DNA of 40,333 nt, taken from assembly GCA_944383385.1 (NCBI GenBank), contig CALWPI010000003.1:1-40333 (forward strand), read 5' to 3'. The stretch is from an uncultured Clostridia bacterium. Its GTDB lineage: Bacteria > Bacillota > Clostridia > Christensenellales > UBA1242. The translations under genes were made by a program, and so were the position numbers. The first letter of the stretch is position 1, and the number at the start of each line of letters is the position of its first letter. Positions 1-31,828 of this stretch are shown here, one piece after another. The notes under the pieces were generated by a model. It was not told the origin of the DNA. It did not search any database and worked only from the letters and a program-made list of their open reading frames with translations.

Positions 1-28
1 AAAAAAGAGCAATTATTTGCTCTTTTTT
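1..28 (-). terminator. Terminator of mnmG
   Basis: A perfect hairpin with arms AAAAAAGAGCAA and TTGCTCTTTTTT around TTAT overlaps the mnmG stop codon. It has a T-run on either strand, so it could work in both directions. Similar AAGAGC hairpins recur at 25158, 28933 and 29405. Confidence 0.85.
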
Positions 29-1863
29 GTTTTTAGATAAATAGATAGCACTGCAATGTCTGCTGGGCTTACACCACTTATTCTACTTGCTTGTCCCAAT
101 GAATAAGGTCTTATGTTTTGCAATTTTTGTTGAGCCTCTATTCTCAATCCTTTGATTTTTTTATAATCAATATCTTGTGGCAATATTATACTCTCTTGTG
201 ATTTTGCTTGTTCAATTTGTTGTTGTTGAATTTTGATATATCCGTCATATTTGATTTCTACTTCAATTTGAGCAAGCAAACTTTGTGGATATTCTGTTAG
301 TATTCCAAAACATGATACTATGTCTTTTATAAAAATATTACTTCTTTTAAGCATGTCAAAATAGGTCATATTTTGATTTGGAATACTCTCATTGTGTGTT
401 TCAAAAAATTTCTTTAAGTCGTCAAAATTGGCTTTATTTCGTAGTTTTTTATAGATTTCTTCTTTCGTTTGCATCTTTTTGAGATACCTATTATAACGTG
501 CTTTTGTAACAAGTCCCACCTTGTATCCAATAGGAGTCAATCTGCTGTCTGCATTATCTTGTCTTAAAAGTAACCTGTATTCTGCACGACTTGTCATCAT
601 TCTATATGGCTCATTTGTCCCCTTTGTGACAAGGTCGTCAATAAGCACTCCAATATATGCATCACTTCTTTTTAATATCAATGGTTCTTTGTCTTTTAGG
701 TAAAGTGCAGCGTTTATTCCTGCAATTATCCCTTGTGCAGCCGCTTCCTCATATCCACTTGTGCCATTTACTTGTCCCGCAAAGTACAATCCTTTTATAT
801 TTTTATAACACAAGGTTGCGTCAAGTTCTGTACTATCAATACAATCATACTCTATTGCGTACGCGTCTCTCATTATGAATGCGTGTTCAAATCCTTTTAG
901 ACTATGCACCATTTTTTCTTGTATGTCAATTGGCATACTTGTAGAAAATCCCTGCAAATACATTTCTTTTGTACTACTTGCTTCTGGTTCCAAGAATAAT
1001 TGATGACGGTCTTTATCAGCAAAATTTACTATTTTTGATTCAATACTTGGGCAATATCTTGGTCCTAACGATGTTATCGAACCATTAAATAATGGTGCTC
1101 TATCCAAATTATCAAGAATAATCTTGTGTGTTTTTTCATTTGTGTATGTCAAATAGCAAGGATATATGTTTTTTGGCGATTTTTTAGTCATAAAACTAAA
1201 ATTTTGTATATTTTCATCACCATTTTGTACTTCTAATTGAGAAAAATCAATTGTATCCTTATGTATTCTTACTGGCGTGCCTGTTTTGAATCTTCGAACA
1301 GATATGCCATTCTCAACTAAACTTTTTGTTAGTAAATTTGCAGGAGCAAATCCGTTTGGCCCAACATTGTTTTTGTATTCACCAATAATAATATCGCTTT
1401 GAAGGTATACACCCGTACAAATGACAACTGCATCAGCAAGGTACGTCGCCCCTTGTGCTGTCTTTACGCCTTTAATTTGGCCATTTTCTACAATAATTTC
1501 ACTCGCTTCTGCTTGTCTCAACCAAAGATTCTTTGTTGTTTCAAGGACTTTTTTCATTTCTGTATGATACTTTACTTTGTCAACTTGTGCACGAAGACTA
1601 TGAACTGCTGGTCCTTTACTTTCATTGAGCATTCTGCGTTGTAGAGTGGTTTTGTCTGCAATAATCCCCATTTCTCCACCTAATGCATCAATTTCACACA
1701 CTAAATGTCCTTTTGCCGTTCCCCCAATAGAAGGATTGCACGCCAAAAAGGCCACACTGTCAAGATTCAGTGCGAGCATTGTTGTTTCTATTCCCATACG
1801 TGCAAGTGCTAATGCTGCTTCACAACCGGCATGGCCACTTCCTACAACTACTGCCTTTTTCAT
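13..1863 (-). CDS. mnmG: tRNA uridine-5-carboxymethylaminomethyl(34) synthesis enzyme MnmG
   Basis: MnmG (GidA) is the FAD-dependent partner of MnmE; together they build the cmnm5 group on wobble uridine 34 of certain tRNAs in the cytoplasm. The 616-residue length is normal for the family. An N-terminal FAD-binding GSGHAG lies at residues 8-13. The GidA signature GPRYCPSIESKI follows in the middle, then GYEEAAAQG and the conserved TSRAEYRLLLRQDNADSRL region. It lies 85 bp downstream of mnmE in an AT-rich gap and ends in a strong hairpin. In related genomes rsmG and parAB commonly follow; here they would fall outside the window. The assignment is secure. Confidence 0.97.
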   Translation of the reverse strand: MKKAVVVGSGHAGCEAALALARMGIETTMLALNLDSVAFLACNPSIGGTAKGHLVCEIDALGGEMGIIADKTTLQRRMLNESKGPAVHSLRAQVDKVKYHTEMKKVLETTKNLWLRQAEASEIIVENGQIKGVKTAQGATYLADAVVICTGVYLQSDIIIGEYKNNVGPNGFAPANLLTKSLVENGISVRRFKTGTPVRIHKDTIDFSQLEVQNGDENIQNFSFMTKKSPKNIYPCYLTYTNEKTHKIILDNLDRAPLFNGSITSLGPRYCPSIESKIVNFADKDRHQLFLEPEASSTKEMYLQGFSTSMPIDIQEKMVHSLKGFEHAFIMRDAYAIEYDCIDSTELDATLCYKNIKGLYFAGQVNGTSGYEEAAAQGIIAGINAALYLKDKEPLILKRSDAYIGVLIDDLVTKGTNEPYRMMTSRAEYRLLLRQDNADSRLTPIGYKVGLVTKARYNRYLKKMQTKEEIYKKLRNKANFDDLKKFFETHNESIPNQNMTYFDMLKRSNIFIKDIVSCFGILTEYPQSLLAQIEVEIKYDGYIKIQQQQIEQAKSQESIILPQDIDYKKIKGLRIEAQQKLQNIRPYSLGQASRISGVSPADIAVLSIYLKTKKSK

Positions 1864-1948
1864 ATTTCCTTCTTTTTATTTTATAATATAAAATTTATAA
1901 CTGAAATTCTAATTCTTATAATTACTTATAATTATATATTAAACAATA

Positions 1949-3304
1949 TTATTTACCAACACAAAATTTTTCAAATATCTTATCAATTATTTCACCGTTA
2001 TTTGTATTTCCTGTTATTTCTCCTATTTTGTTCCACAAATTTGTAAGGTCAATTGATATGATATCGAGTGTCACACCACTCATTATTGCATTTTTAATTT
2101 TGTTACACATTTCTTTTGCTTGTCTCAAAATCTCAACGTGTCTTATATTTGTAATCATTAGACTATCTTTTGTATTTTGCTCACTAATGACTTTGGAATA
2201 AATTTTTTGTTTTAGTTTGTCAATGTTTTGTTCTTGTGTGGCAGATATATAAATTACATCTTTGACATTACCAAGCGTATTTATATCAATATTGTCACAA
2301 ATATCTTGTTTGTTGACAACAATTATATAATTTTTGTCACAAACTAAATTAAATATATATTTATCTTCGTCAGTGATAGGCGTTGTGCTATCAAGCAAAA
2401 ACAATACTATATCTGCACTTTTTATCTCATCAATTGATTTTGCAATGCCTATTTTCTCAACAGCATCATTGCTTTGACGCACACCTGCTGTGTCTATCAA
2501 AATGAATTTGACACCATTATATACATATGTTTCTTCTATTGTATCTCTTGTCGTCCCTTTGATATCTGTGACAATAGCGCGATTATAGTGAAGCATTGCG
2601 TTCATAAGGCTGCTTTTGCCTGCATTTGGTTTTCCTACAAGTGCCACACGACACCCGTTTTTTATGACCATACCTGTTTTGCTAGTTTCAAGTAAGTTGT
2701 TTATTTGATTTTGTAAATCACTAATAGTTGTTTCAAGGTCTATTTTTGCATCGTCTTCGACGTCTTCGTCTGGATAGTCCATAACAACATTTACTTTTGC
2801 AAGTATTTCCGTGATGTTATCTTGCATTGTCTTCACTTTTTGCGCTAAATGACCGGATAATAAATTGTATCCTGCTCTTACTTCACTTTCGCTTTCTGCA
2901 TTTATCATATCAATAACGCCTTCTGCTTCGTCAAGTGTCGTTTTGCCATTTAAGAATGCACGTTTTGTGAATTCTCCTGCTTCTGCCATTGCACAACCAT
3001 GTGACAAAAGAGTTTCTAATATTTGTTTTGCAATAACCATACCACCATGGCATTGAAATTCAACAATATCTTCGCCCGTATAACTATATGGAGCCTTAAA
3101 ATATACCATAAGACATTTTTCTTTTATATCACTTGCAGTAAATTCTCCAAGATAAAGCGTCCTTGGTATGACTTTGTCTTTTGGTCTTGAACACGAAAAA
3201 ACTTCGTATGCTATATCCAAAGCTTTTGGACCACTCATACGAACAATTGCTATTCCACCAACCCCATTTGGTGTTGATATTGCTGCAATAGTTTTTTCTG
3301 CCAT
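1949..3304 (-). CDS. mnmE: tRNA modification GTPase MnmE
   Basis: MnmE (TrmE) is the GTPase partner of MnmG in tRNA wobble-uridine modification. The N-terminal folate-binding domain starts AEKTIAAISTPNG. The G domain inside the helical domain has GKPNAGKSS (G1), DIKGTTRD (G2), DTAG (G3) and NKQD (G4). The protein ends in the catalytic C-terminal CVGK. I chose the ATG at 3304, giving 451 residues, because AAGGTGG lies just upstream and family members begin there; a longer in-frame start at 3337 adds eleven poorly supported residues. The 230-bp gap upstream, after the jag terminator, probably holds its promoter. Confidence 0.96.
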   Translation of the reverse strand: MAEKTIAAISTPNGVGGIAIVRMSGPKALDIAYEVFSCSRPKDKVIPRTLYLGEFTASDIKEKCLMVYFKAPYSYTGEDIVEFQCHGGMVIAKQILETLLSHGCAMAEAGEFTKRAFLNGKTTLDEAEGVIDMINAESESEVRAGYNLLSGHLAQKVKTMQDNITEILAKVNVVMDYPDEDVEDDAKIDLETTISDLQNQINNLLETSKTGMVIKNGCRVALVGKPNAGKSSLMNAMLHYNRAIVTDIKGTTRDTIEETYVYNGVKFILIDTAGVRQSNDAVEKIGIAKSIDEIKSADIVLFLLDSTTPITDEDKYIFNLVCDKNYIIVVNKQDICDNIDINTLGNVKDVIYISATQEQNIDKLKQKIYSKVISEQNTKDSLMITNIRHVEILRQAKEMCNKIKNAIMSGVTLDIISIDLTNLWNKIGEITGNTNNGEIIDKIFEKFCVGK

Positions 3305-3503
3305 TTTCCCACCTTTTGCTTGATTAGTATAGCACACATTTTATTTTTTTCAAATATCATTTTATAATTTTATTATTTTTTGGTATGACAATAAAAATAT
3401 GTTTTTATACTATCAACATAATAATGTAATATTGGTTTAGAATTTAATTAAAATAAAATATATTTGATGTTTTGGTAGTGGTAGTAAATAATTTTTATTA
3501 TTA

Positions 3504-3530
3504 AAATAAAAAAGGTTGCAAAGCAACCTT
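3504..3530 (-). terminator. Terminator after jag
   Basis: Arms AAGGTTGC and GCAACCTT with a three-base loop are followed on the minus strand by a T-rich tract. It sits 5 bp past the jag stop and separates the yidC-jag transcript from mnmE. Confidence 0.85.
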
Positions 3531-3534
3531 TATT

Positions 3535-4260
3535 TTATTCAACATAATCAATTATGAGGTGTCTTTCTTTACCATCTCCTTCGGAGTGAGTAGACACATT
3601 TTTGTATCCTTGAAGGGCAGTGTGAATTATCCTTCTCTCATAACTATTCATTGGTTCTAGACTGTATGATTTTTTCGTACTAACAACATTTTTTGCCATT
3701 CTTTTTGCAAGGTCTACAAGAGTTTTCTTTCTTCTGTCTTTATATCCTTGTACATCCAAAAACAATCTGCCTCTAAAATCAAATTTGTTTTGAAGTGTAG
3801 CATTGATTATTCTTTGAAACGCCTCTAATACTTCGCCATGATAACCAATAAACATTGACAAATCGTCACCTTTTATGTATGCCAAAAAGTCTTTGCCTTC
3901 TTCTTTTACTTCTACTTCGCCAATTTGATTGTACAAATATATCATATGATTTAGATATTTTGATACATACATTATAATATCACTGCTTGTGTATTTTGTT
4001 TTTTGCTTTTCAAGTTTTTCTTCTGGTTTATCAATTATTTCTTGAACAACCGTCTCTTCTACAACATTTTCTTGTGGCAACGCTTCTTGTTCTTCGTGTT
4101 CTTCTTGTTCAATCAAAGTTAGTTGCACTCTTGCTTTCTTAAACAAACTTGCGTCATTTATAATCTCTACATTTACATTGTCTAATGTTGTGTCCAACAT
4201 TTTTAGTCCTTCGGCAATGGCTTGTTCAATAGTTTTTCCTGTCGCTTCGACTTTTTTCAT
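3535..4260 (-). CDS. jag: Jag/KhpB RNA-binding protein (Jag-N, KH, R3H)
   Basis: This is a 241-residue Jag (KhpB/EloR-type) protein. Residues 1-50 match the Jag-N domain (KKVEATGKTIEQAIAEGL). A charged Glu/Gln-rich linker follows at about 55-90. A KH domain contains the IGYHGEVLEAFQRI loop at roughly 135-150, and a C-terminal R3H region carries RRIIHTAL. The family binds RNA and, in Firmicutes studied so far, affects elongation and division; that role is carried over here, not shown. It follows yidC by 11 bp with AAGGAGA before its ATG, the usual yidC-jag pairing. Confidence 0.94.
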   Translation of the reverse strand: MKKVEATGKTIEQAIAEGLKMLDTTLDNVNVEIINDASLFKKARVQLTLIEQEEHEEQEALPQENVVEETVVQEIIDKPEEKLEKQKTKYTSSDIIMYVSKYLNHMIYLYNQIGEVEVKEEGKDFLAYIKGDDLSMFIGYHGEVLEAFQRIINATLQNKFDFRGRLFLDVQGYKDRRKKTLVDLAKRMAKNVVSTKKSYSLEPMNSYERRIIHTALQGYKNVSTHSEGDGKERHLIIDYVE

Positions 4261-4271
4261 AAGTTCTCCTT

Positions 4272-5357
4272 TTATCTACTATAAGATACTTTTGGTTTGT
4301 TCTTTTGCTTTTTTGCAGCAATTTTTTCTTCAATTACTTCTATTATTATAGTCATAATAGGATTAATTACAAGTGAGAACATTGCACCAATAACGATATA
4401 AATAGCAAATGCTGCTGTATAGAATAGGGTGAATATTGCCATAATTGCAGGCATCAAAAATAACATAAATTTGTTTTTAGCCATTGGGTCGACATATACT
4501 TGACCTTTTTTCTTTGCTCTCAATTTTGATACCCAACCAGTCATCTTTGTAGATAAGAACGTTACTAATGCTGCAAGGATACAAAGAATGTAATATCCAT
4601 TCCATTGACCTTCGTATTTTGCACTCAATGAATCAGTCATAACATCTTGGTACAAAACAGGATTTACATAGTTTTCGTTTTCAACATTAGTTGATTGTTT
4701 TGTATATTTTACAAAATCATCATAAGACAATACAACCGAACTGCTGGTATCTTTTCCCCAAATGTTCTTTATCCATAAAAATGATTCTTTTATATCATCA
4801 TATTTCACTTGAACTGCGCTATTTGCGTATTCTTTTGCCTCATCATTTAGAGTCACACCTTCTGCTCGTTCAAAAGAATATTCGTCAACACCAAGTTCGT
4901 TTGCTTTTTCGTTATATGCTGTAATATATGTATCTTGCAAAATCTCAAATTCGTTATTCATTTTGTATGCAACCATGTCATTTAACGTTCCAAACAACGT
5001 AAAGAACACAACACATGTGATGACCATATAAACAACCATTATACCCAAACTGCCAAACACATTGTAATTTTCTTTTTTATACAATTTCATTGTCTCTTGA
5101 TTGAGCATTTGTGGGTTGTTTGCATACTTTTTGTTGAGCGCGTCTAGTTTTGGTTTTAGATTGGCCATCATTTTGCTATTTCTAGTAGTAAAAATCCTTT
5201 GCACCAAATCAATAGGGAGTATACATGTTTTTATAAGTAGTGTTAGCAAAATAATTGCAACTGCATAGTTTGCCACACTGCCGTTTATCCAATTTATGAG
5301 ATTTGCCCACATACCTTCTGGTGCAGCAACGCTCAGTACCATATTAAAGAAATTCAT
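4272..5357 (-). CDS. yidC: Membrane protein insertase YidC/SpoIIIJ family, with enlarged loop
   Basis: This 361-residue YidC/Oxa1-family insertase places proteins in the cytoplasmic membrane. Membrane segments are visible at about 28-50, 103-126, 248-268 and 292-340. The charged cytoplasmic hairpin between the first two (MMANLKPKLDALNKKY) is typical. Lys43 sits where the hydrophilic-groove Arg is common. The stretch from about 127 to 247 is an unusually long, acidic extracytoplasmic loop that still holds the WIKNIWGKD remnant of the standard loop. AAAGGAG precedes the ATG. It lies 79 bp after rnpA, and no yidD gene lies between them. Confidence 0.93.
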   Translation of the reverse strand: MNFFNMVLSVAAPEGMWANLINWINGSVANYAVAIILLTLLIKTCILPIDLVQRIFTTRNSKMMANLKPKLDALNKKYANNPQMLNQETMKLYKKENYNVFGSLGIMVVYMVITCVVFFTLFGTLNDMVAYKMNNEFEILQDTYITAYNEKANELGVDEYSFERAEGVTLNDEAKEYANSAVQVKYDDIKESFLWIKNIWGKDTSSSVVLSYDDFVKYTKQSTNVENENYVNPVLYQDVMTDSLSAKYEGQWNGYYILCILAALVTFLSTKMTGWVSKLRAKKKGQVYVDPMAKNKFMLFLMPAIMAIFTLFYTAAFAIYIVIGAMFSLVINPIMTIIIEVIEEKIAAKKQKNKPKVSYSR

Positions 5358-5436
5358 TTTTTCTCCTTTCAGTTTGCTAAATATAATATATAGTAATATA
5401 AAATAGTAAAAATTTCAAAATAATTATTATAAATAT

Positions 5437-5790
5437 TTACACTTTGTTTGTATTTACATAATTTTTTGCTTTTTCTATCAAATAAACGACAATTTTATCA
5501 ATGTCAGCATACGTCAAATCACAAATAGATGACTTTGCTACAAAAATGTAATTCAGTCTATTGTCGATATTTTGCATATTGTTTCTCACACTTGCACGTA
5601 GTCTGCGTTTTATTAGATTGCGAGTGTGTGCTTTTCCCACCTTTTTAGACACAGAAAAACCTATCTTCGTCTTTTCTAATTTGTTTGGCACGAAGATAAG
5701 ATTGAGACTAGGTGTTGATATACATTTGCCTGCACGATAAATATAATTAAACGCTTTGCGTTTTTTTAGTCTATTTTCTTTGTCTAACAT
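5437..5790 (-). CDS. rnpA: Ribonuclease P protein component
   Basis: RnpA is the small basic protein of RNase P, which removes tRNA 5' leaders. The length of 117 residues is normal. The signature helix is HTRNLIKRRLRASVR at about residues 56-70, and the start LDKENRLKKRKAF is typical. It lies about 100 bp downstream of rpmH, but a terminator hairpin stands between them. rnpA may therefore be expressed by read-through or from its own weak promoter. Confidence 0.95.
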   Translation of the reverse strand: MLDKENRLKKRKAFNYIYRAGKCISTPSLNLIFVPNKLEKTKIGFSVSKKVGKAHTRNLIKRRLRASVRNNMQNIDNRLNYIFVAKSSICDLTYADIDKIVVYLIEKAKNYVNTNKV

Positions 5791-5851
5791 TTGATACCTA
5801 CAATTATATCATAACATATTTTTAGATATTTTACTATCAAAAATTATTCTA

Positions 5852-5877
5852 ATAAAAAAACTAGTCACAAGACTAGT
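5852..5877 (-). terminator. Hairpin terminator between rpmH and rnpA
   Basis: Arms ACTAGTC and GACTAGT with loop ACAA are followed on the minus strand by a T7 run. It lies 15 bp after rpmH and could set the rpmH to rnpA expression ratio by partial termination. Confidence 0.8.
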
Positions 5878-5892
5878 TGATTTATACATTCA

Positions 5893-6027
5893 TTAAGCAG
5901 ATAGTTTTGCTCTACCACGATTTCTACGTCTTTTGATGACATTCTTGCCACCTTTTGTTCTCATACGAGCACGGAAACCATGAACTTTACTTCTTTGTTT
6001 CTTTTTTGGTTGATAAGTTCTTTTCAT
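5893..6027 (-). CDS. rpmH: 50S ribosomal protein L34
   Basis: This 44-residue ribosomal protein belongs to the 50S subunit. The translation starts [19 protein letters not shown], contains [15 protein letters not shown] and ends GRAKLSA, a full match to L34. AAAGGAAGG lies eight bases before the ATG. Its own strong promoter (TTGACA, 18 bp, TATAAT) lies about 90 bp upstream, and the leader carries a tandem repeat and a short overlapping reading frame. It is normally divergent from dnaA; here it points the same way and follows dnaN. Confidence 0.97.
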
Positions 6028-6057
6028 ACACTGTTCCTTCCTTTATATATTTTAGCA

Positions 6058-6086
6058 TTACGCACTTGCATTTTACGCACTTGCAT
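6058..6086 (-). repeat. Tandem direct repeat in the rpmH leader
   Basis: TTACGCACTTGCAT occurs at 6058-6071 and again at 6073-6086, a 15-base period. Both copies lie in the predicted 5' leader of rpmH. The second copy ends at an ATG (minus strand) that opens a 20-codon frame, positions 6086-6024, beginning MQVRKMQVRN and ending in a TGA that overlaps the rpmH ATG. Confidence 0.85.
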
Positions 6087-6114
6087 AGTGCTGTAAATTT
6101 CGTATTGCAAATTG

Positions 6115-6144
6115 ATTATATAAGATACTAAATAATATTGTCAA
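6115..6144 (-). promoter_or_regulatory. Promoter of rpmH
   Basis: On the minus strand a perfect TTGACA (6139-6144), an 18-bp spacer and a perfect TATAAT (6115-6120) give a strong vegetative promoter. The start would fall near 6108. Confidence 0.8.
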
Positions 6145-6192
6145 GGCTTTTTTGTAAAACACGCGCCATAATTATTACTATATTTTATGTTT

Positions 6193-7296
6193 TTACAATC
6201 TTCTCAAAGGTATTATTAGATATGTGAAATCTGTATCTTCTACACCTGTGATTGTACAAGGGGATATGCCATTAAAATTGAGTTTTAAGAATTCACAATC
6301 AATAACTCGTAGTGCTTCTATAAAATATCTTGCATTGAAATCAAGAGAAACATCATTTCCTTCAAGAGCGATTGTAATATTTTCCTTAAATTCACCCAAA
6401 TCGCTTTTTGCTGACACTGTCATAATTTTGTCTGTCACATCAAATCTAACCAAATTGTTCCTTTCAATACGACTGAGTAGTCCTGCTCTATCAAGAGTAT
6501 TTTCTAGTTGTTCTTTGTTGATTGTCACAATAGTTGATGCGTTTGATGATTTTTCAATAACTTGTTTGTATTCAATAAATTGACCGTTTAGTAATCTTGT
6601 TGTAATTGCAGTATCGTCAATTGTTAGCATCATATAATTTGGTTCTAGATATACTGTAATATTGTCTTCGTCATCTTCAAGCAATTTACTTATTTCATTT
6701 AGTGACCTAGCAGGGATAATGGCACTCATATTGCCACTGGCTGATTTGACTTGTTTTTTGAGCATAGCGATACGGAAACCGTCTACTGCAACAGATGTAA
6801 TGCTGTCGCCTTCAATTTCAAACAATGCTCCTTTTAGGACTGGTCTATTGTCGTCTACTGCAACAGAGAAAATTGTTTTGTTGATAAGGTCTTTCAAGTC
6901 TTTTGCAGTTAGTTCGAAATAATTGTTCTCTGTCAATTTTTTCATTGTAGGGAACTCATCACTATTTAGACATTGTATGTTTGTATTACTATCAGTATAT
7001 TTAATAGACAATACATTCTTTTCATTTAGATTGAGTTCGATTTGTTCGCCTGTTAGTTTCTTTATAAATTCACAAAAGAACTTACCTGGAACAACTGTCT
7101 CGCCTTCAATCTTGACTTCGGCTCTTATTTTCTTTTCTATATAGAGTTCCATATCCGTTGCAGACAATGTAAGGATATCATCTTTTGCTTCTAGTTTGAT
7201 GCCTTCAAGTATTGGATTTGTTGTTCTTGCTCCTATTGCTTTACTGACTTTTAGCACTGCATCACTTAGCTCTAAACCATTACAAATCAATTTCAT
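6193..7296 (-). CDS. dnaN: DNA polymerase III beta sliding clamp
   Basis: DnaN is the ring-shaped clamp that tethers DNA polymerases. At 367 residues it has the normal length, with three similar domains. The start MKLICNGLELSDAVLKVSKAIG, the NPILEGIKLEA region, RPVLKGALFEI and the C-terminal YLIIPLRRL (family pattern YLIMPVRL) are all diagnostic. GGAGCGAAGG lies before the ATG. It follows dnaA by 220 bp in a gap that carries several DnaA boxes. DinB, encoded further on, has a clamp-binding peptide. Confidence 0.97.
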   Translation of the reverse strand: MKLICNGLELSDAVLKVSKAIGARTTNPILEGIKLEAKDDILTLSATDMELYIEKKIRAEVKIEGETVVPGKFFCEFIKKLTGEQIELNLNEKNVLSIKYTDSNTNIQCLNSDEFPTMKKLTENNYFELTAKDLKDLINKTIFSVAVDDNRPVLKGALFEIEGDSITSVAVDGFRIAMLKKQVKSASGNMSAIIPARSLNEISKLLEDDEDNITVYLEPNYMMLTIDDTAITTRLLNGQFIEYKQVIEKSSNASTIVTINKEQLENTLDRAGLLSRIERNNLVRFDVTDKIMTVSAKSDLGEFKENITIALEGNDVSLDFNARYFIEALRVIDCEFLKLNFNGISPCTITGVEDTDFTYLIIPLRRL

Positions 7297-7365
7297 TTTG
7301 CCTTCGCTCCTTCAAATTAAATTATTATTTTTAAATCATTATCTTTATTATTAGTGTAGTGGAAA

Positions 7366-7509
7366 TGTGGATAACTCTTTTGTTTTTCAAAAAAGCATAT
7401 ATTTCACTATCTAAATATACCATATTTTACAAAATTCGACAATATTTATATGTGGACAAGTTGTTAGTTTTTTGTGTTTTTGTATCCACAAACCAATTAG
7501 TTATGCACA
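7366..7509. promoter_or_regulatory. DnaA-box cluster between dnaA and dnaN
   Basis: Four DnaA-like 9-mers lie here: an exact TTATCCACA on the minus strand at 7366-7374, TTGTCCACA (minus) at 7451-7459, GTATCCACA (plus) at 7482-7490 and TTATGCACA (plus) at 7501-7509. The flanks are AT-rich. In Bacillus subtilis the dnaA-dnaN gap is the unwinding half of oriC. No such box was seen upstream of dnaA here. Confidence 0.7.
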
Positions 7510-7516
7510 TTACGCA

Positions 7517-8860
7517 TTATTGTGCGTGTTCAATTGTGTTTTTGATATCATCTATTGTTACTCTCATACGGTTGCTATCTTTTATAGCATTTAGTATTTT
7601 TTCTCTTGCGTGAATAACTGTTGTATGGTCACGGCCACCAAATATATCTCCAATAGATGTGAGTGGCAAATCCATCATATCACAAATAAGATACATCGCA
7701 ATTTGTCTTGGCTCAACAATTTCTTTATTCTTTTTCTTTCCAATCAAATCATCTTTTGAAATATTGAAATATTTGCAAACAGCAACTATTATTTTGTCGC
7801 TTGTGATAGACTTTTTCTCCGAAATGACTTGGTCTTTTAATGCTTCTGCAACATCATCCATAGTAGCGTGTGTCTTTCCAGATAGATTTGCGTAAAATAC
7901 AACTTTGCACAACACTCCTTCCATTTCACGAATATTGCTATTTGAATTGGTTGCTATGTAATCAATAACATCTTCGTCAATATTATAGTGTTCTTGTTGT
8001 GCCTTCTTTTGAAGTATTGCAAATCTTGTTTCGTAATCAGGGAATTGAATATCTTGTATGAGTCCCATACTGAAACGAGAACGCAATCTGTCTTCTAGTG
8101 TTTCAATCTCTTTTGGAGCACGGTCACTTGCGATTATGATTTGTTTGTTGTTTTGGTACAATTCGTTAAACACATTAAAGAACTCTTCTTGTGTAGATGT
8201 CTTTTTTGAAATGAATTGGATATCATCTACCATCAAAACGTCCACGTTTGTGTATTTGTTCCTAAAAGACGCAATTGCACCAATTTTGTCCTTGTTTGCC
8301 ATACAATCTATATAGTCGTTTGTGAACTTGTTACATGTGACGTACATGACTTTTAGGTCAGGACGTGTTTTTGATAAATAATTGCCAATTGCGTGTAATA
8401 AGTGTGTTTTACCAAGTCCAACACCACCATATATATATAATGGATTGATTTTTGTAACAGGATTTTCTGCGACACCACGAGCAGCGGCATAAACATATTT
8501 GTTACTATTACCAACGACAAAATTGTCAAATGTAAACTTTTCATTAAACTTGCAAATAGGCGAAGACGAAACGACCTTTGATTCCTGTTCGCTAGACTTG
8601 TATTTTGTAGTCTCATCAGGGTCAAGTATCTTAAAGTCCACAATGTCTTCGTTTGCACTCTTTATTGCATAACGAATGGACTGTTCGTGAAGTTTCAGCA
8701 CTCTATTTTTTGCAGTTTCGCTTGTTGTTGACAAGTACAAAACATTATTTTTCAAATCAATTGGTTCCAAACTCTTTATCCATAAATCAAAAGAAACAGC
8801 TGTGACTTCCTTTTCGAGAGTTTTGAGCGCAATATTCCAAATTTCTTTTGCGTCTTGCAT
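7517..8860 (-). CDS. dnaA: Chromosomal replication initiator protein DnaA
   Basis: DnaA binds DnaA boxes at the origin and opens the duplex. The ATG at 8860 gives 447 residues. It is chosen because GAGG lies seven bases upstream; an in-frame TTG four codons earlier is less likely. Domain I is at 1-80, a variable linker follows, then the AAA+ ATPase with Walker A GGVGLGKTHLLHA near residue 145 and Walker B VDDIQF near 210, and the domain IV DNA-binding signature GGRDHTTVIHA near 415. dnaN follows on the same strand, while recF lies unusually upstream. Confidence 0.98.
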   Translation of the reverse strand: MQDAKEIWNIALKTLEKEVTAVSFDLWIKSLEPIDLKNNVLYLSTTSETAKNRVLKLHEQSIRYAIKSANEDIVDFKILDPDETTKYKSSEQESKVVSSSPICKFNEKFTFDNFVVGNSNKYVYAAARGVAENPVTKINPLYIYGGVGLGKTHLLHAIGNYLSKTRPDLKVMYVTCNKFTNDYIDCMANKDKIGAIASFRNKYTNVDVLMVDDIQFISKKTSTQEEFFNVFNELYQNNKQIIIASDRAPKEIETLEDRLRSRFSMGLIQDIQFPDYETRFAILQKKAQQEHYNIDEDVIDYIATNSNSNIREMEGVLCKVVFYANLSGKTHATMDDVAEALKDQVISEKKSITSDKIIVAVCKYFNISKDDLIGKKKNKEIVEPRQIAMYLICDMMDLPLTSIGDIFGGRDHTTVIHAREKILNAIKDSNRMRVTIDDIKNTIEHAQ

Positions 8861-8900
8861 AATTTTCCTCAATAATAAAATATTTTATCAGTATAAATTT

Positions 8901-8929
8901 AGATTACATTTATAATGTAATTTTGTCAA
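8901..8929 (-). promoter_or_regulatory. dnaA promoter with overlapping palindrome
   Basis: On the minus strand a perfect TTGACA at 8924-8929 is followed after 17 bp by a weak -10, TAATCT, at 8901-8906. A perfect inverted repeat with 8-bp arms, ATTACATT-TAT-AATGTAAT, fills 8903-8921, covering the spacer and the -10. That is where a repressor would bind. It is not a DnaA box. Confidence 0.6.
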
Positions 8930-8986
8930 GCAATGAACCAGTTTTGTAGTGTTTATCTATATTTTTGGTTGTTTTGCTAAAAAAAC

Positions 8987-10072
8987 TTATTTAACATTTT
9001 TGACCGTCCCATTACTTATCTCATATCTTGTGTAAGGAATAGAAAAATCAAAATCAGTACAAGTGAGTATTGTTTGCATTTTGCTCACTCTTTTAAGTAG
9101 GGCAAGTTGTCTGTTTTGGTCTAGTTCGGACAAAACATCATCAAGTAGTAAGACTGGATACTGACCAAGTGAATGATAGAATATTTCTAGTTCAGCAAGT
9201 TTTAGTGACAATGCGCTTGTCCTTTGTTGTCCTTGTGAACCATAATATCTAACGTCAATATCATTTATACAAATTTTGATATCGTCACGATGTGGGCCTA
9301 CTGTTGTGTAACCTAGTTCCCAATCTTTTTGTATATTCTTTGTGAGTGACATAATCATACTGTCTTTAATGTCTTGTACAGTGTCACCCAATATGCCAAC
9401 ATATTCAAGAGTCAAATTTTCTTTGTTATTAGTCAGTTCAAGATGTATATCGTGTGCAAATTTTTTCAAATTCTCAACAAACTTTATTCTCTCATATATA
9501 ATATACGATCCCACTTTTGCTAGTTGCTCGTCCCAAATAGAAAGAGTGTCTTTTAGAACATCAAATGAAGTAGTTGATTTTAGAAGTTTGTTTCTTTGTA
9601 AAAGTATTTTGTTATATTTTGAAAGTGCGTAAAAATAATTTTTATCAAATTGTGACAAATCAATATCCATAAAACGTCTACGTTCTTGTGGGCTGTCTTT
9701 TATGAGTTTGAGTTCGTCAGGACAAAAATATACTGCATTAAACTCGCCCATAAGTTCTCCCATTTTTTTGATAGGAATATTATTTATCTTGATAGCCTTG
9801 TTTTGATTTGGAAAAAGATATAAGGAGATAGTCTTTCTATTCACTTTTTCGACAGTCAAATCAATTTTTGAATAATCCGTATTCCACAAAATCAAATCTT
9901 TGTCTTTGTTTGTTCTAAGAGACTTTCCTATTGCACATAAAAAAATAGCCTCTACCAAATTGGTTTTGCCTTGTGCGTTATCTCCCACAAGTACGTTTAG
10001 TCCAGGGGCAAAAGAAATACTGATATCTTTATAGTTTCTATAATTTTTAAGTTTCAAATTCTTGACTATCAT
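8987..10072 (-). CDS. recF: DNA replication/repair protein RecF
   Basis: RecF is an SMC-like ATPase that helps load RecA at gaps. The ATG at 10072 gives 361 residues. Walker A is GDNAQGKTNLVEA near residue 33, the signature region includes GPHRDD, and Walker B is VLLLDDVLSELD. I prefer this ATG to an in-frame TTG two codons upstream. No ribosome site is visible; a TATAAT ends eight bases before the ATG, so translation may be leaderless. recF normally follows dnaN; here it is about 126 bp upstream of dnaA. Confidence 0.96.
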   Translation of the reverse strand: MIVKNLKLKNYRNYKDISISFAPGLNVLVGDNAQGKTNLVEAIFLCAIGKSLRTNKDKDLILWNTDYSKIDLTVEKVNRKTISLYLFPNQNKAIKINNIPIKKMGELMGEFNAVYFCPDELKLIKDSPQERRRFMDIDLSQFDKNYFYALSKYNKILLQRNKLLKSTTSFDVLKDTLSIWDEQLAKVGSYIIYERIKFVENLKKFAHDIHLELTNNKENLTLEYVGILGDTVQDIKDSMIMSLTKNIQKDWELGYTTVGPHRDDIKICINDIDVRYYGSQGQQRTSALSLKLAELEIFYHSLGQYPVLLLDDVLSELDQNRQLALLKRVSKMQTILTCTDFDFSIPYTRYEISNGTVKNVK

Positions 10073-10161
10073 ACACAATTATTATATCAAAAAATATTAT
10101 ATAATAAAAAGAAAAAATGTATTTTTTGCATTTTATAATAATTTTTTATGCATCGGGTGAC

Positions 10162-20934: not shown

Positions 20935-22131
20935 TTATTCCTCTTGGTCGCCTTCATCTCCCGAATCTAGTGGGGTGGTATAAGTGATAGTGTCAAGAAT
21001 GTCATCATCTTTGGTTGGTAAGGCTTGCACTTTATTTAGTTTGTTTTGGATATTGCGAGTCTTTGCACTTGCTAGTTTCATTGTGTTGCTGACTTCTTCC
21101 AGTTTGCGATTTGTTTTGTCTAATAACAATCCAAATTTGCCAAACTCTGTCTTGACCTTGCCAAGTATATTCCACACTTCGCTTGTTTGTTTTTGAACGG
21201 CCAGCGTTCTAAATCCCATTTGCAAACTATTGATAAGAGCAGAGAATGTTGTAGGGCCAGTGACAGATATATGATACTCTTGTTGCAAAGTTTGACATAA
21301 AGAAGTATTCCTTAAAACTTCGCAATACAAACTCTCTGTTGGCAAAAACATTATGCCAAAGTCCGTAGTATATGGCGGGTCAATATATTTATCACGAATT
21401 TGACCTGCAAATACTTTTATAGATTTTTCAAGGTCTTTTCTTGCTCTTTCTATTTGAGCGACATCGCCGTCGTCTTCGGCCTTTAATAGTCTTTCATAGT
21501 CTTCAACAGGATATTTGCTATCCACAGGCAAGAGAACAATCTCTCCTTCGACCTTGCTTGGTATCTTGATTGCAAACTCAACAAAATCATTTGACCTTTT
21601 CTTTATCTTGACATTGGCGCTATATTGTTCAGGTGTCAAAAACTGTTCTAGCAATGCAGAGAGTTGAACCTCGCCCCACGTACCACGAGCCTTGACATTA
21701 GTTAGCACTTTTTTTAGGTCTCCAACACCATTTGCAAGAGTTTGCATTTCTCCTAGTCCTTTATAGACAGATTGGAGTTGGTCGCTCACTTGTTTGAAAC
21801 TTTCTCCCAATCTTTTTTCAAGAGTGGACGTTAGTTTTTCGTCCACAGTTTCACGCATTTTTTCAAGTTTAATACTATTTTCTTTTTCAATATGTGTTAG
21901 TCTATCTTCTACACTTTTTCTAATGTTTTCGAGTTTTGCTTCGTTGACTTGTGTCAAGTTATCAATTCTTGCACCTAACACATTATTGATTTCTTCTCTT
22001 GTGTTTTTGAGTTCGGTGGATATGTCACGACGCAGTTCGCTATTATTACTGCCGTCTTTTTTTGCAAAAACTAAATATAGTTGTACACACAAGATAAGCA
22101 CAAGTATAACAATTATTGCCACTTCAATCAT
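20935..22131 (-). CDS. rmuC: DNA recombination protein RmuC homologue
   Basis: A 398-residue RmuC-family protein. One N-terminal membrane helix at about 3-24 is followed by a long coiled coil (25-135), then the conserved nuclease-like domain containing GTWGEVQLSALLEQFLTPEQY, DSKYPVEDYERLL and DFGIMFLPTESLYCEV. RmuC limits inversions at short repeats in E. coli; its biochemical activity is not settled. Its ATG overlaps the stop of the upstream SDR gene as ATGA, so the two genes and the ATPase form one operon. Confidence 0.93.
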   Translation of the reverse strand: MIEVAIIVILVLILCVQLYLVFAKKDGSNNSELRRDISTELKNTREEINNVLGARIDNLTQVNEAKLENIRKSVEDRLTHIEKENSIKLEKMRETVDEKLTSTLEKRLGESFKQVSDQLQSVYKGLGEMQTLANGVGDLKKVLTNVKARGTWGEVQLSALLEQFLTPEQYSANVKIKKRSNDFVEFAIKIPSKVEGEIVLLPVDSKYPVEDYERLLKAEDDGDVAQIERARKDLEKSIKVFAGQIRDKYIDPPYTTDFGIMFLPTESLYCEVLRNTSLCQTLQQEYHISVTGPTTFSALINSLQMGFRTLAVQKQTSEVWNILGKVKTEFGKFGLLLDKTNRKLEEVSNTMKLASAKTRNIQNKLNKVQALPTKDDDILDTITYTTPLDSGDEGDQEE

Positions 22132-22946
22132 TTTCTATATTTACCCCCTTTGGTAAAACCACCCATAAACTTTTCATCAAAATGCAAAAGCACACCCATT
22201 GGCAAAAAACGATTGACGAAATATAGCACTTTGTATTTTGCGCTAATTATTGTCATTGCTTTGATATGTTTTTTGTTGCCCATTCTAAATAGTCTTTTTG
22301 CTATGATTGTAGGAGACATACGTTTGTCATTGTTTTTGTCAATACGTTCAGCTGCGACATTTGGTCGGTCGCCATATCGGTCACAAGTATCAAAATGTTT
22401 TTCTCTGTTTTTAGTAAAGTTTGTTTTTGTGTCTCCTGGGCAAACACATCCAATCTCAACACCAAAATCTCTGCATTCTAATCTTTGAGAATATGTTAGC
22501 ATTGCAGTTGCTGCCTTGCTTGCACAGTATAGTGTTCTAAAAGGAACAGGGAATAGAGCACAGGCAGATGCTACGTTTATTACTTTGCTACCTTTTGGCA
22601 TATATTTAAGAGCATGATTTGTACAAGACAATACGCCAAATGTGTTGACGTTGAATATCGCATGTGCGCGCTCACTAGAAATGAGTTCAGTAACTCCACT
22701 AAGCCCATAACCAGCATTGTTAATTAAAATATCAATACGGCCATATTTTTGACCAATCTCATCCATTACTTGTTTGACACGTGCGTCATCACTCACATCA
22801 CATTGATAAAAATTATCTACACCAATATTATTGTCGAGTGACAAAGAACACACAATGTCTCCATTTTGTTTATATAAATTTGCCGTCTCTAAGCCAATAC
22901 CACTAGTAGCTCCTGTTATGACAACAACTCTTTCAGTTTTCTTCAT
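22128..22946 (-). CDS. Short-chain dehydrogenase/reductase
   Basis: A 272-residue classical SDR oxidoreductase of unknown substrate. The NAD(P) motif TGATSGIG is near residue 12, NNAGYG near 85, and the catalytic YCASK near 150 with an upstream Ser in VASACALFP. I chose the ATG at 22946 because GGGAG lies seven bases upstream; a longer frame to 23033 would add a hydrophobic stretch from AT-rich non-coding DNA. It heads the operon with rmuC and borders the DnaA-box region. Confidence 0.9.
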   Translation of the reverse strand: MKKTERVVVITGATSGIGLETANLYKQNGDIVCSLSLDNNIGVDNFYQCDVSDDARVKQVMDEIGQKYGRIDILINNAGYGLSGVTELISSERAHAIFNVNTFGVLSCTNHALKYMPKGSKVINVASACALFPVPFRTLYCASKAATAMLTYSQRLECRDFGVEIGCVCPGDTKTNFTKNREKHFDTCDRYGDRPNVAAERIDKNNDKRMSPTIIAKRLFRMGNKKHIKAMTIISAKYKVLYFVNRFLPMGVLLHFDEKFMGGFTKGGKYRK

Positions 22947-23681
22947 TGCAAATCTCCCATATGTTAAATTTATAATTATAAAATAATATAATACTAACAA
23001 TATTGTACCATAGCAAAAAAAATCCAAAAACAAAATTAAACAACAAAATAAAAATATACAAAAATATTTGCATAAATTGTATATAGTAACACAAAAGAGA
23101 TTTTATACATAGTATGAATTGTATAAAGATGAATAAACATTTATTCACTTTATGCAAAATCTTCCCCCAATCTTGAAGATTGTTTTTATATATACTCTCG
23201 CAAGCCCTTTATTGCGAGAGTTTTTGTTTGCATAAAAATGAATAGAATACAAATACACAATGTATAATTATAAGTTATCCACATTTGCACAATGAATAGT
23301 GTATAAATTTTTGTGTATAAAATTCAAAAATTGAATATTTGTGCATAAAATTGTATAAAACAGGGGTGCAAAAGGGTAAGTTATCCACATTTCCACAAAT
23401 TTTGGCATAGTTATCCACAATGTGTTATTATAAATTGTTCTATAATTTATGCAAAATGTGTACAAATTTATAGAACAAAGCAAAGTTATCCACACATATA
23501 TTTTGTAATTATTAGAAAATGAAGGGAAGTATACAACATACATTTTTGTGAATAAAAAGTATGATTATCTTATATAATATTTTGCTGTGTGCCATATCTT
23601 GTGTTTTATAAAAATTGTGGCACAATATTTGTGGTTATAGTTATACAAAACTAATTGTATATACAATGAATAAAAAAAAGG
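22947..23681. other. 735-bp non-coding region, candidate replication origin
   Basis: This is the largest gap in the window and has no credible gene. Seven 9-mers match TTATNCACA: TTATCCACA on the plus strand at 23275, 23381, 23411 and 23486; and minus-strand TTATACACA (23312), TTATGCACA (23340) and TTATTCACA (23547). Each of the four plus sites is preceded by AG. Four exact copies of TTTGCATAAA are interleaved (23067, 23149, 23227 and 23446). The flanks are very AT-rich, and two hairpins lie at 23168-23225. These are the hallmarks of an origin or a DnaA-titrating site; it lies about 14 kb from dnaA. Confidence 0.65.
23168..23225 (+). terminator. Two tandem terminator-like hairpins
   Basis: CAATCTTGAAGATTG (7-bp arms, 23168-23182) is followed by TTTTT, and CTCTCGCAA/TTGCGAGAG (9-bp arms, 23194-23220) is followed by TTTTTG. 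Both read as terminators on the plus strand, yet no plus-strand gene lies upstream. They may end a small RNA or shield the DnaA-box cluster from transcription. Confidence 0.6.
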
Positions 23682-23693
23682 TCATTCGACCTT
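23672..23693 (-). terminator. Terminator of the VanW gene
   Basis: AAGGTC and GACCTT pair around a four-base loop, overlap the stop codon and are followed by an eight-T run on the minus strand. It would stop transcripts before the DnaA-box region. Confidence 0.85.
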
Positions 23694-25109
23694 TTCTGTT
23701 TGGATATTAAATTGTTCGTTTGAGAACTCACTTGGCAACTCGCAAGCGCCTTCGACTACTAGCCCGTCTTGTGCACGATATATATCATGACGAATTATTT
23801 CGCTTGATACCAATGTATTATTTTCGTATTTATCAAGATATGCTTGTGTTTCGTATCCTTCTTTTGGATAACTTATTCTATATTTTTCTCCCTTGTACAA
23901 TACTTTGTCACTATATTTTTTATCATAGTCGATTATTTTGTTGTCTTGTGCAGGTAGGGTGCGTATTGTTTCACTTCGCGTTCTATAAAATGTTCCTTCT
24001 GGTAATGGTTCGCCATATATTTCGACATATACGTTTTCGCTATCACTATATGTGTGTATGAACATAGGATAATCACTATTGTTAGTAAAGCCCAGGTCAC
24101 TAATACCTTCGGACACCATAGCATCTAGGCTCAATGGCACATATTTGACAGGCAGAGTGTGTTTTTGCACGTCATCAATTTGACGACCGGCAAGCAAGAG
24201 TGCGTTGTATAGAGTTGAGCTTGCTTGACATATTCCACCACCTACACCGTCTTGAAATTTGCCGTCATATATAATTGTTGCGATTTTATATCCATTAGCT
24301 TGTGTTTGTGGACCGGTTATTTGGTTGAATGAGACAAACTGGTGTGGTTCGACTCTAAGCCCTTCAAAACTTTGTAGAGCATGTTTGACATTATATTTTC
24401 TATTTCCTGTGTTGTCGGATACTGATGTTTTGAACGATGACACAAGGCTTGTACACAACAAGTTGTCTTCTTTGGTGATTTTAGGTGCGACGTCTATAAT
24501 AGGCAGTTCAAGTGTGACGCTCGAAGATGTTGCATATTGTTCATTTATCATATTATATAGTTTTTCTTTGTCGACGGTCTGTCCATTTTTTTCGTCCAAA
24601 ATTATTACATGTCCGTCCACTTTGTTGTCAAACGTGACTACGCTGTCGGTTGGAGAAACAGTGACTTCTTCTATAATTTTGTTGATATCATCATCAAGAC
24701 CAACAAACAAGTAGTTGAAGTTGACTACAAGGTCACGCTCATTAGCGTTTGCCAAAAACTCTTTTGTTTTTTCATAGTCTTGTGATATGAGTTCGCGACG
24801 TTGGGCTTCGTCTATTATTGTGTATATATCACTATTTATTTTATAATCACTGCCTTTCAATTGCCATTCTTTGTCTCCGTGTTTTAGCGTGAGAGAAAAT
24901 GTTTCGGCTGTGTCGTTAAAATATTGTGACAATTTTTCGACTGCTTGTGTGCGATTTAGGCCGTCAATGCTTATTCCATTTATTGTATAATTTCTAGCAA
25001 CAGGCGACGTTGTTTTTGATAAAACGATGTTTCCTGCTAGTGCCATAAAAAGAAGCGCAATAATAAGTGATATTGCCCAAATGCCATAAGATGTTTTTTT
25101 CTTTTCCAT
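23682..25109 (-). CDS. VanW family protein with peptidoglycan-binding-like domain
   Basis: A 475-residue protein with one N-terminal membrane helix (about residues 8-30), so probably anchored with the bulk outside. Residues 40-210 resemble the tandem PG_binding_4 region often paired with VanW. The VanW domain follows with VSFNQITGPQTQANGY and the signature GVGGGICQASSTLYNALL. VanW proteins lie in some vancomycin-resistance clusters, but most are widespread envelope proteins of unknown activity, and no vanHAX genes are here. It stands alone, between a terminator at each end. Confidence 0.88.
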   Translation of the reverse strand: MEKKKTSYGIWAISLIIALLFMALAGNIVLSKTTSPVARNYTINGISIDGLNRTQAVEKLSQYFNDTAETFSLTLKHGDKEWQLKGSDYKINSDIYTIIDEAQRRELISQDYEKTKEFLANANERDLVVNFNYLFVGLDDDINKIIEEVTVSPTDSVVTFDNKVDGHVIILDEKNGQTVDKEKLYNMINEQYATSSSVTLELPIIDVAPKITKEDNLLCTSLVSSFKTSVSDNTGNRKYNVKHALQSFEGLRVEPHQFVSFNQITGPQTQANGYKIATIIYDGKFQDGVGGGICQASSTLYNALLLAGRQIDDVQKHTLPVKYVPLSLDAMVSEGISDLGFTNNSDYPMFIHTYSDSENVYVEIYGEPLPEGTFYRTRSETIRTLPAQDNKIIDYDKKYSDKVLYKGEKYRISYPKEGYETQAYLDKYENNTLVSSEIIRHDIYRAQDGLVVEGACELPSEFSNEQFNIQTEKVE

Positions 25110-29433: not shown

Positions 29434-31828
29434 ATTCTGTTCGAAGTGCAACGACTGGGTCTTTTTTGCTAGCAATTCTTGCTGGAATGAGTCCAGATAT
29501 TAGTGTTAGCATTACACTGATAACAACAAGTATTAGTGCGCTCATAGGTGCAAGCACTGCGAGATTGCCAACGTTTGCGACCAACGAATTGATTAATGCG
29601 TTTATTGGGAAAGTGAGAATAAATGCAATAAACACACCAATTAATCCAGCAGACAATCCAATAATAAATGTTTCTGCATTAAATACTCGGCTAATATCTT
29701 TCTTTCTTGCTCCAATGCTACGAAGAACGCCAATTTCTTTTGTCCTTTCGATTACTGAAACATAAGTAATAATGCCTATCATTATAGAACTAACAATTAG
29801 AGAAATGCCGACAAAAGCAATTAGAACATAACTGACAGAGTCAACCATAGTAGAAAGAGCACTTGTAAGGACTTCCATCATGTCATTATAGTACACTCTG
29901 TCTTCGGCTTCTACTGATTCGTTGTAAGCATCCAAATGTGCTTTTACATTTGCTTTGCTGTCAAAATCTTTTACATATATATAGATATTATTTGGAGTTG
30001 TTATTCCACCAAATCTTCTCATATCTTCTTCGTGTTGTTCTTCTGCTGTGCCGTCTTCCAAATTGTATTCTTCACCCGTCATTGGGTCGCGTGTAGGATT
30101 GTCCTTCATCCATTGTATAATTTCGTAGTCAGCGCTATCTAATGTACTATTGTTATTTAGTACATATTCATACAAATCATTTGTATAGGCAATGCCACTA
30201 GAATACATACCTGACTGTGTACTACTATTTGGTCTCAATACGCCAACAATTTTGAGTTTGAGTGCCTGCGACAGTGTGGCTGTGTCTGTGACCTTTACAT
30301 AAGAGTAACAATTTTTTTCATTGTCATAAACGAAGTTTGTTGAGTTGGTTGTCACTACATATTCAGTTGAGCAAATGTCATCAAAGTCATACTCTGTGAC
30401 ATTATCTAGCATATTTTTGATACCAAGCGCACTTAATGTGATGTCGCTTATTTGATTGTATTTATCCACAATCAAGACCATTTCATCAAAGTTTGTTGGA
30501 TACTTTCCATATATTAGGTCATATTGACTTTTTACAAATTCTTCGTTGTTAGATAGTCGTTGCATTGCAGATGATGAGCCAAGTGAAGAAGGAGCCGAAC
30601 TTGCAATATCATTATCCAGTTTTTTATAGACGCCGTCTTTGTACAAATAAATATATCGTCCAAGACGCAGTCCAGATTCGTACAATATATCATAATAATC
30701 GTCAGTGTTAATAGTTTTTATAACATTTTGTACATATTCATCTGTGATATTTGATTTTTTCAAAGATGATTCTATCATTTTTTGAAACAAATTATTGACA
30801 TACACTTTTTGACTGTCGGGATAACTTTCTTTTTCTTCGCTATTTTGAATATTATTTAACAGTCCTGCGATATCCGGCACTTCTTCGCTAATGGTGAGTG
30901 GGGCAGATGAGAGCGTGTCTGTTTGCATTTTATTTATGTAGATATTGAATCCATTTGATAGTGACAAAACGAGTGCAATACCAATTATACCAATAGAGCC
31001 AGCAATGGATGTTAATATCGTTCTTCCTTTTTTGCTCCAAAGATTTTTGAAACTAAGTGACAGTGCAGTAAAAAATGACATTGATGTTTTGTTTTTCTTT
31101 TGGACTGCCCCTTGTTTTTCTTGAACTAATTCAGTTGATGAGTCTTCTATTTGATAAGGATTGCTATCATCTATTATGTTACCATCTAACAATTTTATAA
31201 TTCTTGTAGAATATTGTTCAGCCAATTTTGCATTGTGGGTTACCATGATGACAAGGCGCTCTTTGGATATATCTTTTATGAGTTCCATTATTTGAATACT
31301 CGTATTGCTATCGAGCGCTCCGGTAGGCTCATCTGCGAGCAATATTTCAGGGTCGTTGACAAGCGCTCTTGCAATAGCCACTCTTTGCATTTGTCCACCA
31401 GACAATTGGTTTGGTCGTTTTTTTGCTTGTTCTTTTAGTCCTACGCGTTCAAGCGCATTGAGTGCTCTTATTTTTCTTTCCTTACTAGATATACCGCTCA
31501 AAGCAAGGGCCAGCTCAACATTTTTTGCAATTGACAAATGTTGTATTAGATTATAACTTTGAAATACAAAACCAATACTGTGATTGCGATAAATATCCCA
31601 GTCTTTGTCCTTGAAAGATTTTGTGCTTTTGCCTTTTATTATCAAATCGCCCGAAGTATATTTGTCAAGCCCACCAATGATATTAAGCAGTGTGGTTTTG
31701 CCACATCCCGAAGGGCCTAATATAGACACAAATTCGTTTGCACGAAAATCAACAGATACATTGTTTAGTGCTGTTACAGAAAAGTCATTTGATTTGTATA
31801 TTTTAGTAATATTTTTCAAACTTAACAT
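29432..31828 (-). CDS. ABC transporter, ATPase fused to FtsX-like permease (MacB-like)
   Basis: This 798-residue protein fuses an ATPase and a permease. Residues 1-230 are the ATPase: Walker A LGPSGCGKTTLLN, signature LSGGQMQRVAIARAL, Walker B ILLADEPTGALD. A membrane helix at about 275-295 is followed by a large extracytoplasmic region (300-660) and three C-terminal helices with the FtsX motif (ERTKEIGVLRSIGARKKDI). Such Firmicutes proteins often export or resist antimicrobial peptides or move lipoproteins, but no substrate can be named. No two-component system or adaptor is beside it. Confidence 0.9.
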   Translation of the reverse strand: MLSLKNITKIYKSNDFSVTALNNVSVDFRANEFVSILGPSGCGKTTLLNIIGGLDKYTSGDLIIKGKSTKSFKDKDWDIYRNHSIGFVFQSYNLIQHLSIAKNVELALALSGISSKERKIRALNALERVGLKEQAKKRPNQLSGGQMQRVAIARALVNDPEILLADEPTGALDSNTSIQIMELIKDISKERLVIMVTHNAKLAEQYSTRIIKLLDGNIIDDSNPYQIEDSSTELVQEKQGAVQKKNKTSMSFFTALSLSFKNLWSKKGRTILTSIAGSIGIIGIALVLSLSNGFNIYINKMQTDTLSSAPLTISEEVPDIAGLLNNIQNSEEKESYPDSQKVYVNNLFQKMIESSLKKSNITDEYVQNVIKTINTDDYYDILYESGLRLGRYIYLYKDGVYKKLDNDIASSAPSSLGSSSAMQRLSNNEEFVKSQYDLIYGKYPTNFDEMVLIVDKYNQISDITLSALGIKNMLDNVTEYDFDDICSTEYVVTTNSTNFVYDNEKNCYSYVKVTDTATLSQALKLKIVGVLRPNSSTQSGMYSSGIAYTNDLYEYVLNNNSTLDSADYEIIQWMKDNPTRDPMTGEEYNLEDGTAEEQHEEDMRRFGGITTPNNIYIYVKDFDSKANVKAHLDAYNESVEAEDRVYYNDMMEVLTSALSTMVDSVSYVLIAFVGISLIVSSIMIGIITYVSVIERTKEIGVLRSIGARKKDISRVFNAETFIIGLSAGLIGVFIAFILTFPINALINSLVANVGNLAVLAPMSALILVVISVMLTLISGLIPARIASKKDPVVALRTE

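Follow-up and report, generated by a model that had tools for sequence, protein, structure and literature searches.

A conserved cluster of DnaA boxes beside vanW in an uncultured Clostridia bacterium, predicted to bind DnaA outside the origin

DnaA boxes located outside the replication origin can influence initiation. In Bacillus subtilis, as the work of Okumura et al. (2012) is presented in PMC5295017 and PMC13220808, six non-origin DnaA-box clusters were studied together; their joint deletion led to early initiation, and a strong effect was obtained only upon joint removal. In Escherichia coli, where DnaA is subject to titration, boxes are concentrated near oriC (PMC12371093), and the datA locus carries five high-affinity DnaA boxes (PMC5295017). 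Origins of the Bacillota provide a further point of reference. The regulatory half lies upstream of dnaA in both B. subtilis and C. difficile, and in the latter organism the origin comprises two halves with DnaA boxes, with unwinding taking place in the dnaA-dnaN gap beside CACCTACTACTATTACTACTATGA (PMC7561715).

The locus described here lies in a genome of the Christensenellales, from an uncultured lineage of gut Clostridia, on a 40,333-nucleotide stretch (referred to as the window) that constitutes the entire contig C3, so that our view ends where the window ends. Like the B. subtilis clusters as portrayed in those two sources, it is an intergenic group of DnaA boxes outside the origin of a member of the Bacillota; unlike those six clusters, it is a single one, anchored to vanW over many genera and carrying the tandem box pair of the origin. 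It resembles datA in being one non-origin locus with several DnaA boxes of the high-affinity type, a likeness of arrangement for which no sequence relation is claimed; at datA itself, IHF takes part in stimulating the hydrolysis of DnaA-ATP. A tandem DnaA-box pair is also found in dnaA-dnaN origins that use a basal unwinding system, such as those of B. subtilis and oriC2 of C. difficile (PMC7561715, PMC8287927). In contrast to such origins, the cluster lacks DnaA-trios and lies off the skew switch, while the dnaA-dnaN gap of the window has both a box and trios and falls within the switch region. Coordinates are collected in Table 1.

Table 1. Features of the window that bear on DnaA binding and the origin (relatives are given by genome number)
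Feature	Position	Strand	Remarks
dnaN	6193..7296	-	TIGR00663
dnaA-dnaN gap, likely oriC	7297..7516	.	boxes at 7366-, 7451- and 7482+ (one mismatch), 7501+
Origin unwinding unit, TTATCCACA - TTTCCACTACA - CTAATAATA	7346..7374	-	box, spacer, three trios
dnaA	7517..8860	-	TIGR00362
Short-chain dehydrogenase gene (SDR)	22128..22946	-	PF00106; first gene past the cluster, also in G008, G025 and G031
AT-rich intergenic gap, SDR to vanW, containing the cluster	22947..23681	.	
DnaA-box cluster	23275..23555	.	seven TTATNCACA matches in 281 bp
Exact TTATCCACA boxes of the cluster	23275+, 23381+, 23411+, 23486+		
Minus-strand boxes of the cluster	23312-, 23340-, 23547-		TTATACACA, TTATGCACA and TTATTCACA, respectively
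Tandem DnaA-box pair TTATCCACATTTGCAC	23275..23290	+	origin-type 16-mer
Tandem DnaA-box pair TTATCCACATTTCCAC	23381..23396	+	equals the 16-mer of the dnaA-dnaN unit; opens the core common to G008, G031, G014 and G025
Terminator-like hairpin after vanW	23674..23697	-	
vanW-like gene	23682..25109	-	PF04294; 3' side serves as the conserved cluster anchor

All seven 9-mers reported by the initial annotation were recovered at the same positions and on the same strands. Their gap is the largest in the window (735 bp, G+C 0.235), and dinucleotide shuffles of it contained a mean of 0.185 boxes and a maximum of 3, with none of 5,000 reaching at least seven. Over the whole window, 13 matches to TTATNCACA were observed against 4.5 expected, and the draft assembly (923,698 bases in 60 contigs, 95% complete) held 89. 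A genome-wide scan found no second cluster, with at most two TTATNCACA matches per 300 bp elsewhere in the assembly; such two-box spots, the dnaA-dnaN gap among them, are the next densest. The cluster is a group of boxes far above chance and outside the origin, as are non-origin clusters of the B. subtilis type. Of the two isolated exact copies listed earlier, at 13412 and 30472, the second is really at 30462, and a further exact copy occurs at 7366, in the dnaA-dnaN gap. Four of the five copies in the window of TTTGCATAAA / TTTATGCAAA, one mismatch from TTATGCACA, are in the cluster gap (23067-23455), and these may be weak DnaA boxes.

As had been noted initially, a terminator-like hairpin follows just past vanW on the vanW strand. 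A second strong one, on the plus strand at the cluster edge (23194-23221), has no annotated gene heading towards it and possibly ends a short unannotated transcript. Promoter-like matches in the cluster gap were not above those in shuffled sequence, the window contained no parS-like site, and an Rfam search of it returned three tRNAs and nothing else.

Sequence signals point to the dnaA-dnaN gap as the most likely start of replication. This gap holds the single unit in the window that joins a DnaA box, a spacer and DnaA-trios, reading from 7374 to 7346, and its layout matches both that of C. difficile (PMC7561715) and the published definition of such units (PMC8287927). Among the relatives, similar units were recognised by eye in about a dozen dnaA-dnaN gaps, and six passed a stricter scan requiring four trios. 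No box of the cluster is followed by a run of three trios; in the cluster of relative G025, one box precedes three trio-like triplets, an occurrence near chance in AT-rich DNA. The surrounding genes at 1-10100, recF-dnaA-dnaN-(rpmH)-rnpA-yidC-jag-mnmE-mnmG, are all on the minus strand, in agreement with the leftward orientation described before for 1-10 kb. The congener G001 (C1:93800-104400) carries the jag-recF block in inverted orientation with respect to mnmE-mnmG, and rearrangement breakpoints thus flank the origin.

Strand asymmetry was assessed with a strand-corrected change-point test of third-codon-position GC skew, adopted because gene strand confounds raw skew, in which the switch was scanned over gaps; the leading and lagging coding-strand values for this genome, +0.02 and -0.25, came from a fit to seven other contigs that had themselves been oriented by their overall skew. 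The best switch gap in the window was rnpA-dnaN (5790-6193), with the gaps from 5.4 to 13.1 kb within about 2.3 log-likelihood units of it and dnaA-dnaN at -1.5, versus -11.0 for the cluster gap. In G001, the best gaps were at 99-102 kb, with dnaA at 97.8-99.1 kb and the cluster at -9.7. On a 341-kb contig of G025, no gap scored better than dnaA-dnaN, and the cluster stood at -179 at a distance of 158 kb; the raw skew of this contig changes direction at 260-262 kb, about 8 kb from the dnaA-dnaN gap. For contig C3 of G025, skew was read beyond its masked first 72 kb. The cluster is therefore not at a strand-skew switch in the window, G001 or G025, and the clusters of G029, G002, G008 and G031 lie within switch-free stretches. 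Separately, contig C1 of G028 has a sharp switch of skew and gene strand at about 120 kb, about 17 kb from the two vanW boxes; dnaA of this genome is carried by a different contig.

The origin and the cluster have a box pair in common. Of the three copies of the 16-mer TTATCCACATWTNCAC in this genome, one belongs to the origin unit (7359-7374) and two to the cluster. G025 has one copy at its origin unit and one in its vanW cluster; G008, G031 and G006 have it in the vanW cluster only, and G013 has it in the dnaA-dnaN gap and in another small cluster, which lies 9.6 kb away from vanW. The reversed control of TTATCCACATWTNCAC gave no match in 16 genomes. Furthermore, a core consisting of the tandem pair, a box and another box, with spacings of 74-75 and then 30 or 22, aligns in this genome, G008, G031, G014 and G025, with little similarity in the sequence separating the boxes. 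Permutation gave p = 0.034 for a single spacing and 12 of 2,000 for the triple spacing, values that are supportive only, since both statistics were picked after looking and ignore relatedness.

Using VanW as an anchor in 59 relatives, we found that box clusters are kept downstream of vanW in related genera, which indicates that the cluster is no accident; conservation of the boxes in relatives was among the checks proposed initially. In the 27 genomes of the family, this one included, the 1.5-kb downstream flanks held 50 boxes in 39.4 kb versus 5 in 39.9 kb upstream, and 40 of the 50 point against vanW. These cross-relative tests ignore shared ancestry, and all genomes are draft assemblies. 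A second scan, of named genomes that are partly the same ones (Clostridia MAGs, many titled from animal gut samples), counted 36 boxes downstream versus 5 upstream of VanW matches with at least 34% identity. A box cluster follows vanW in some ten further genera of the family, mostly in the same orientation. At least three boxes are grouped near vanW in this genome, G002, G006, G008, G014, G025, G029, G031 and G034; pairs occur in G005, G016 and G024, and a single box in G022. G028 has two boxes, one within the 3' end of vanW, and in G017 four boxes are found on the 5' side. In G001, a group of three boxes sits next to the SDR gene at a distance of 5.5 kb from vanW, in a gap that reads with further near-boxes and tandem pairs. 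Full box lists were compiled for this genome, G001, G013 and G025, and a cluster of at least three boxes is unique within the genome in both G025 and G001. About a dozen genera of the family show no cluster at vanW; none was seen beside vanW in G003, G011, G012, G013 (short flank), G018, G020, G021, G023, G027, G030 or G032. Compact TTATCCACA triples of about 40 bp occur in two genera lacking the vanW cluster (L244:7703-7746 in G013 and L246:7178-7218 in G003), both upstream of a gene of 162-168 aa that encodes DUF378 in G003 and has no family hit in G013.

We consider it probable (roughly 60%) that the cluster binds DnaA outside the origin and titrates it, in the manner of the DnaA-box clusters of B. 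subtilis or datA of E. coli. Since skew and sequence signals place the origin by dnaA, the locus most likely binds and restrains DnaA and does not start replication. The cluster has the tandem pair of the origin and additional high-affinity boxes, with no trios, and from an origin-type pair without trios DnaA would be expected to load without opening the duplex. Lying some 16 kb from the origin here, the cluster would be copied soon after initiation; its copying would double the DnaA sink and leave less free DnaA to refire the origin. Restraint could come from titration as such or from inactivation of DnaA-ATP in a complex. DnaA binding, titration and an effect on initiation timing are all inferred for the cluster. 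Plain stoichiometric titration would be modest, because seven boxes are a small part of the 89 in the genome, and the wide variation in the distance from origin to cluster, from 16 kb here to 158 kb in G025, counts against this reading, as do the dozen or so genera that show no cluster by vanW and, to the small extent that it exceeds chance, the G025 box with trio-like triplets. A bolder, family-wide version, in which a single decoy origin by vanW, with the origin's tandem pair and no trios, would serve over 16-158 kb either as the principal regulator of DnaA or as the regulatory half displaced from the origin, appears doubtful.

The initial annotation had proposed either an origin or a titration locus, and titration fits best by inference. 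An oriC or second active origin at the cluster is very improbable. In its favour, this is the densest box cluster of the genome, AT-rich and in the largest gap, and raw cumulative GC skew shows a broad low at about 23-32 kb, a signal rejected as an origin indicator on account of its confounding by gene strand. The strand-corrected tests in three genomes, by contrast, put the switch in the dnaA region rather than at 23.3 kb (158 kb from the cluster in G025), the cluster has no DnaA-trio, and the complete unit lies in the dnaA-dnaN gap, as do similar units in the relatives. A somewhat less remote idea, still quite unlikely, has the cluster acting at a distance on the dnaA-dnaN half, as the regulatory half displaced from a two-part origin. 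The shared tandem pair, the scarcity of TTATNCACA immediately upstream of dnaA across the family and the two halves of C. difficile (PMC7561715) are compatible with it; known two-part origins, however, are split by one gene, and in G025 the halves would be 158 kb apart.

DnaA is also a transcription factor in B. subtilis (PMC4447404), and at the cluster it might repress or activate the SDR-rmuC operon, or act at the vanW end, coupling these genes to the replication cycle. The SDR gene does lie downstream of the cluster in this genome, G001, G008, G025 and G031. However, the gene past the cluster varies among genera: in G002, G005, G016 and G034 a gene separates vanW from the cluster and the far gene is not SDR, in others a PAP2 protein or different genes come after it, and the gap is no richer in promoter-like matches than shuffled sequence. 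We regard transcriptional control as unlikely. Least probable of all is that the cluster is left over from a former origin or an insertion and has no function today. The box pair shared with the origin and the inversion of the dnaA block between two congeners would suit such a history, but boxes, orientation and part of the spacing are kept where VanW proteins are 44-56% identical, whereas the sequence between the boxes is not.

In sum, a predicted DnaA-titrating locus beside vanW carries a caution for draft genomes, in that the densest DnaA-box cluster is not necessarily the origin. In this lineage, where genomes are about 1 Mb and a single dominant cluster is conserved and uses the box pair of the origin, titration would be testable with one locus, and the finding bears on how Bacillota limit free DnaA.
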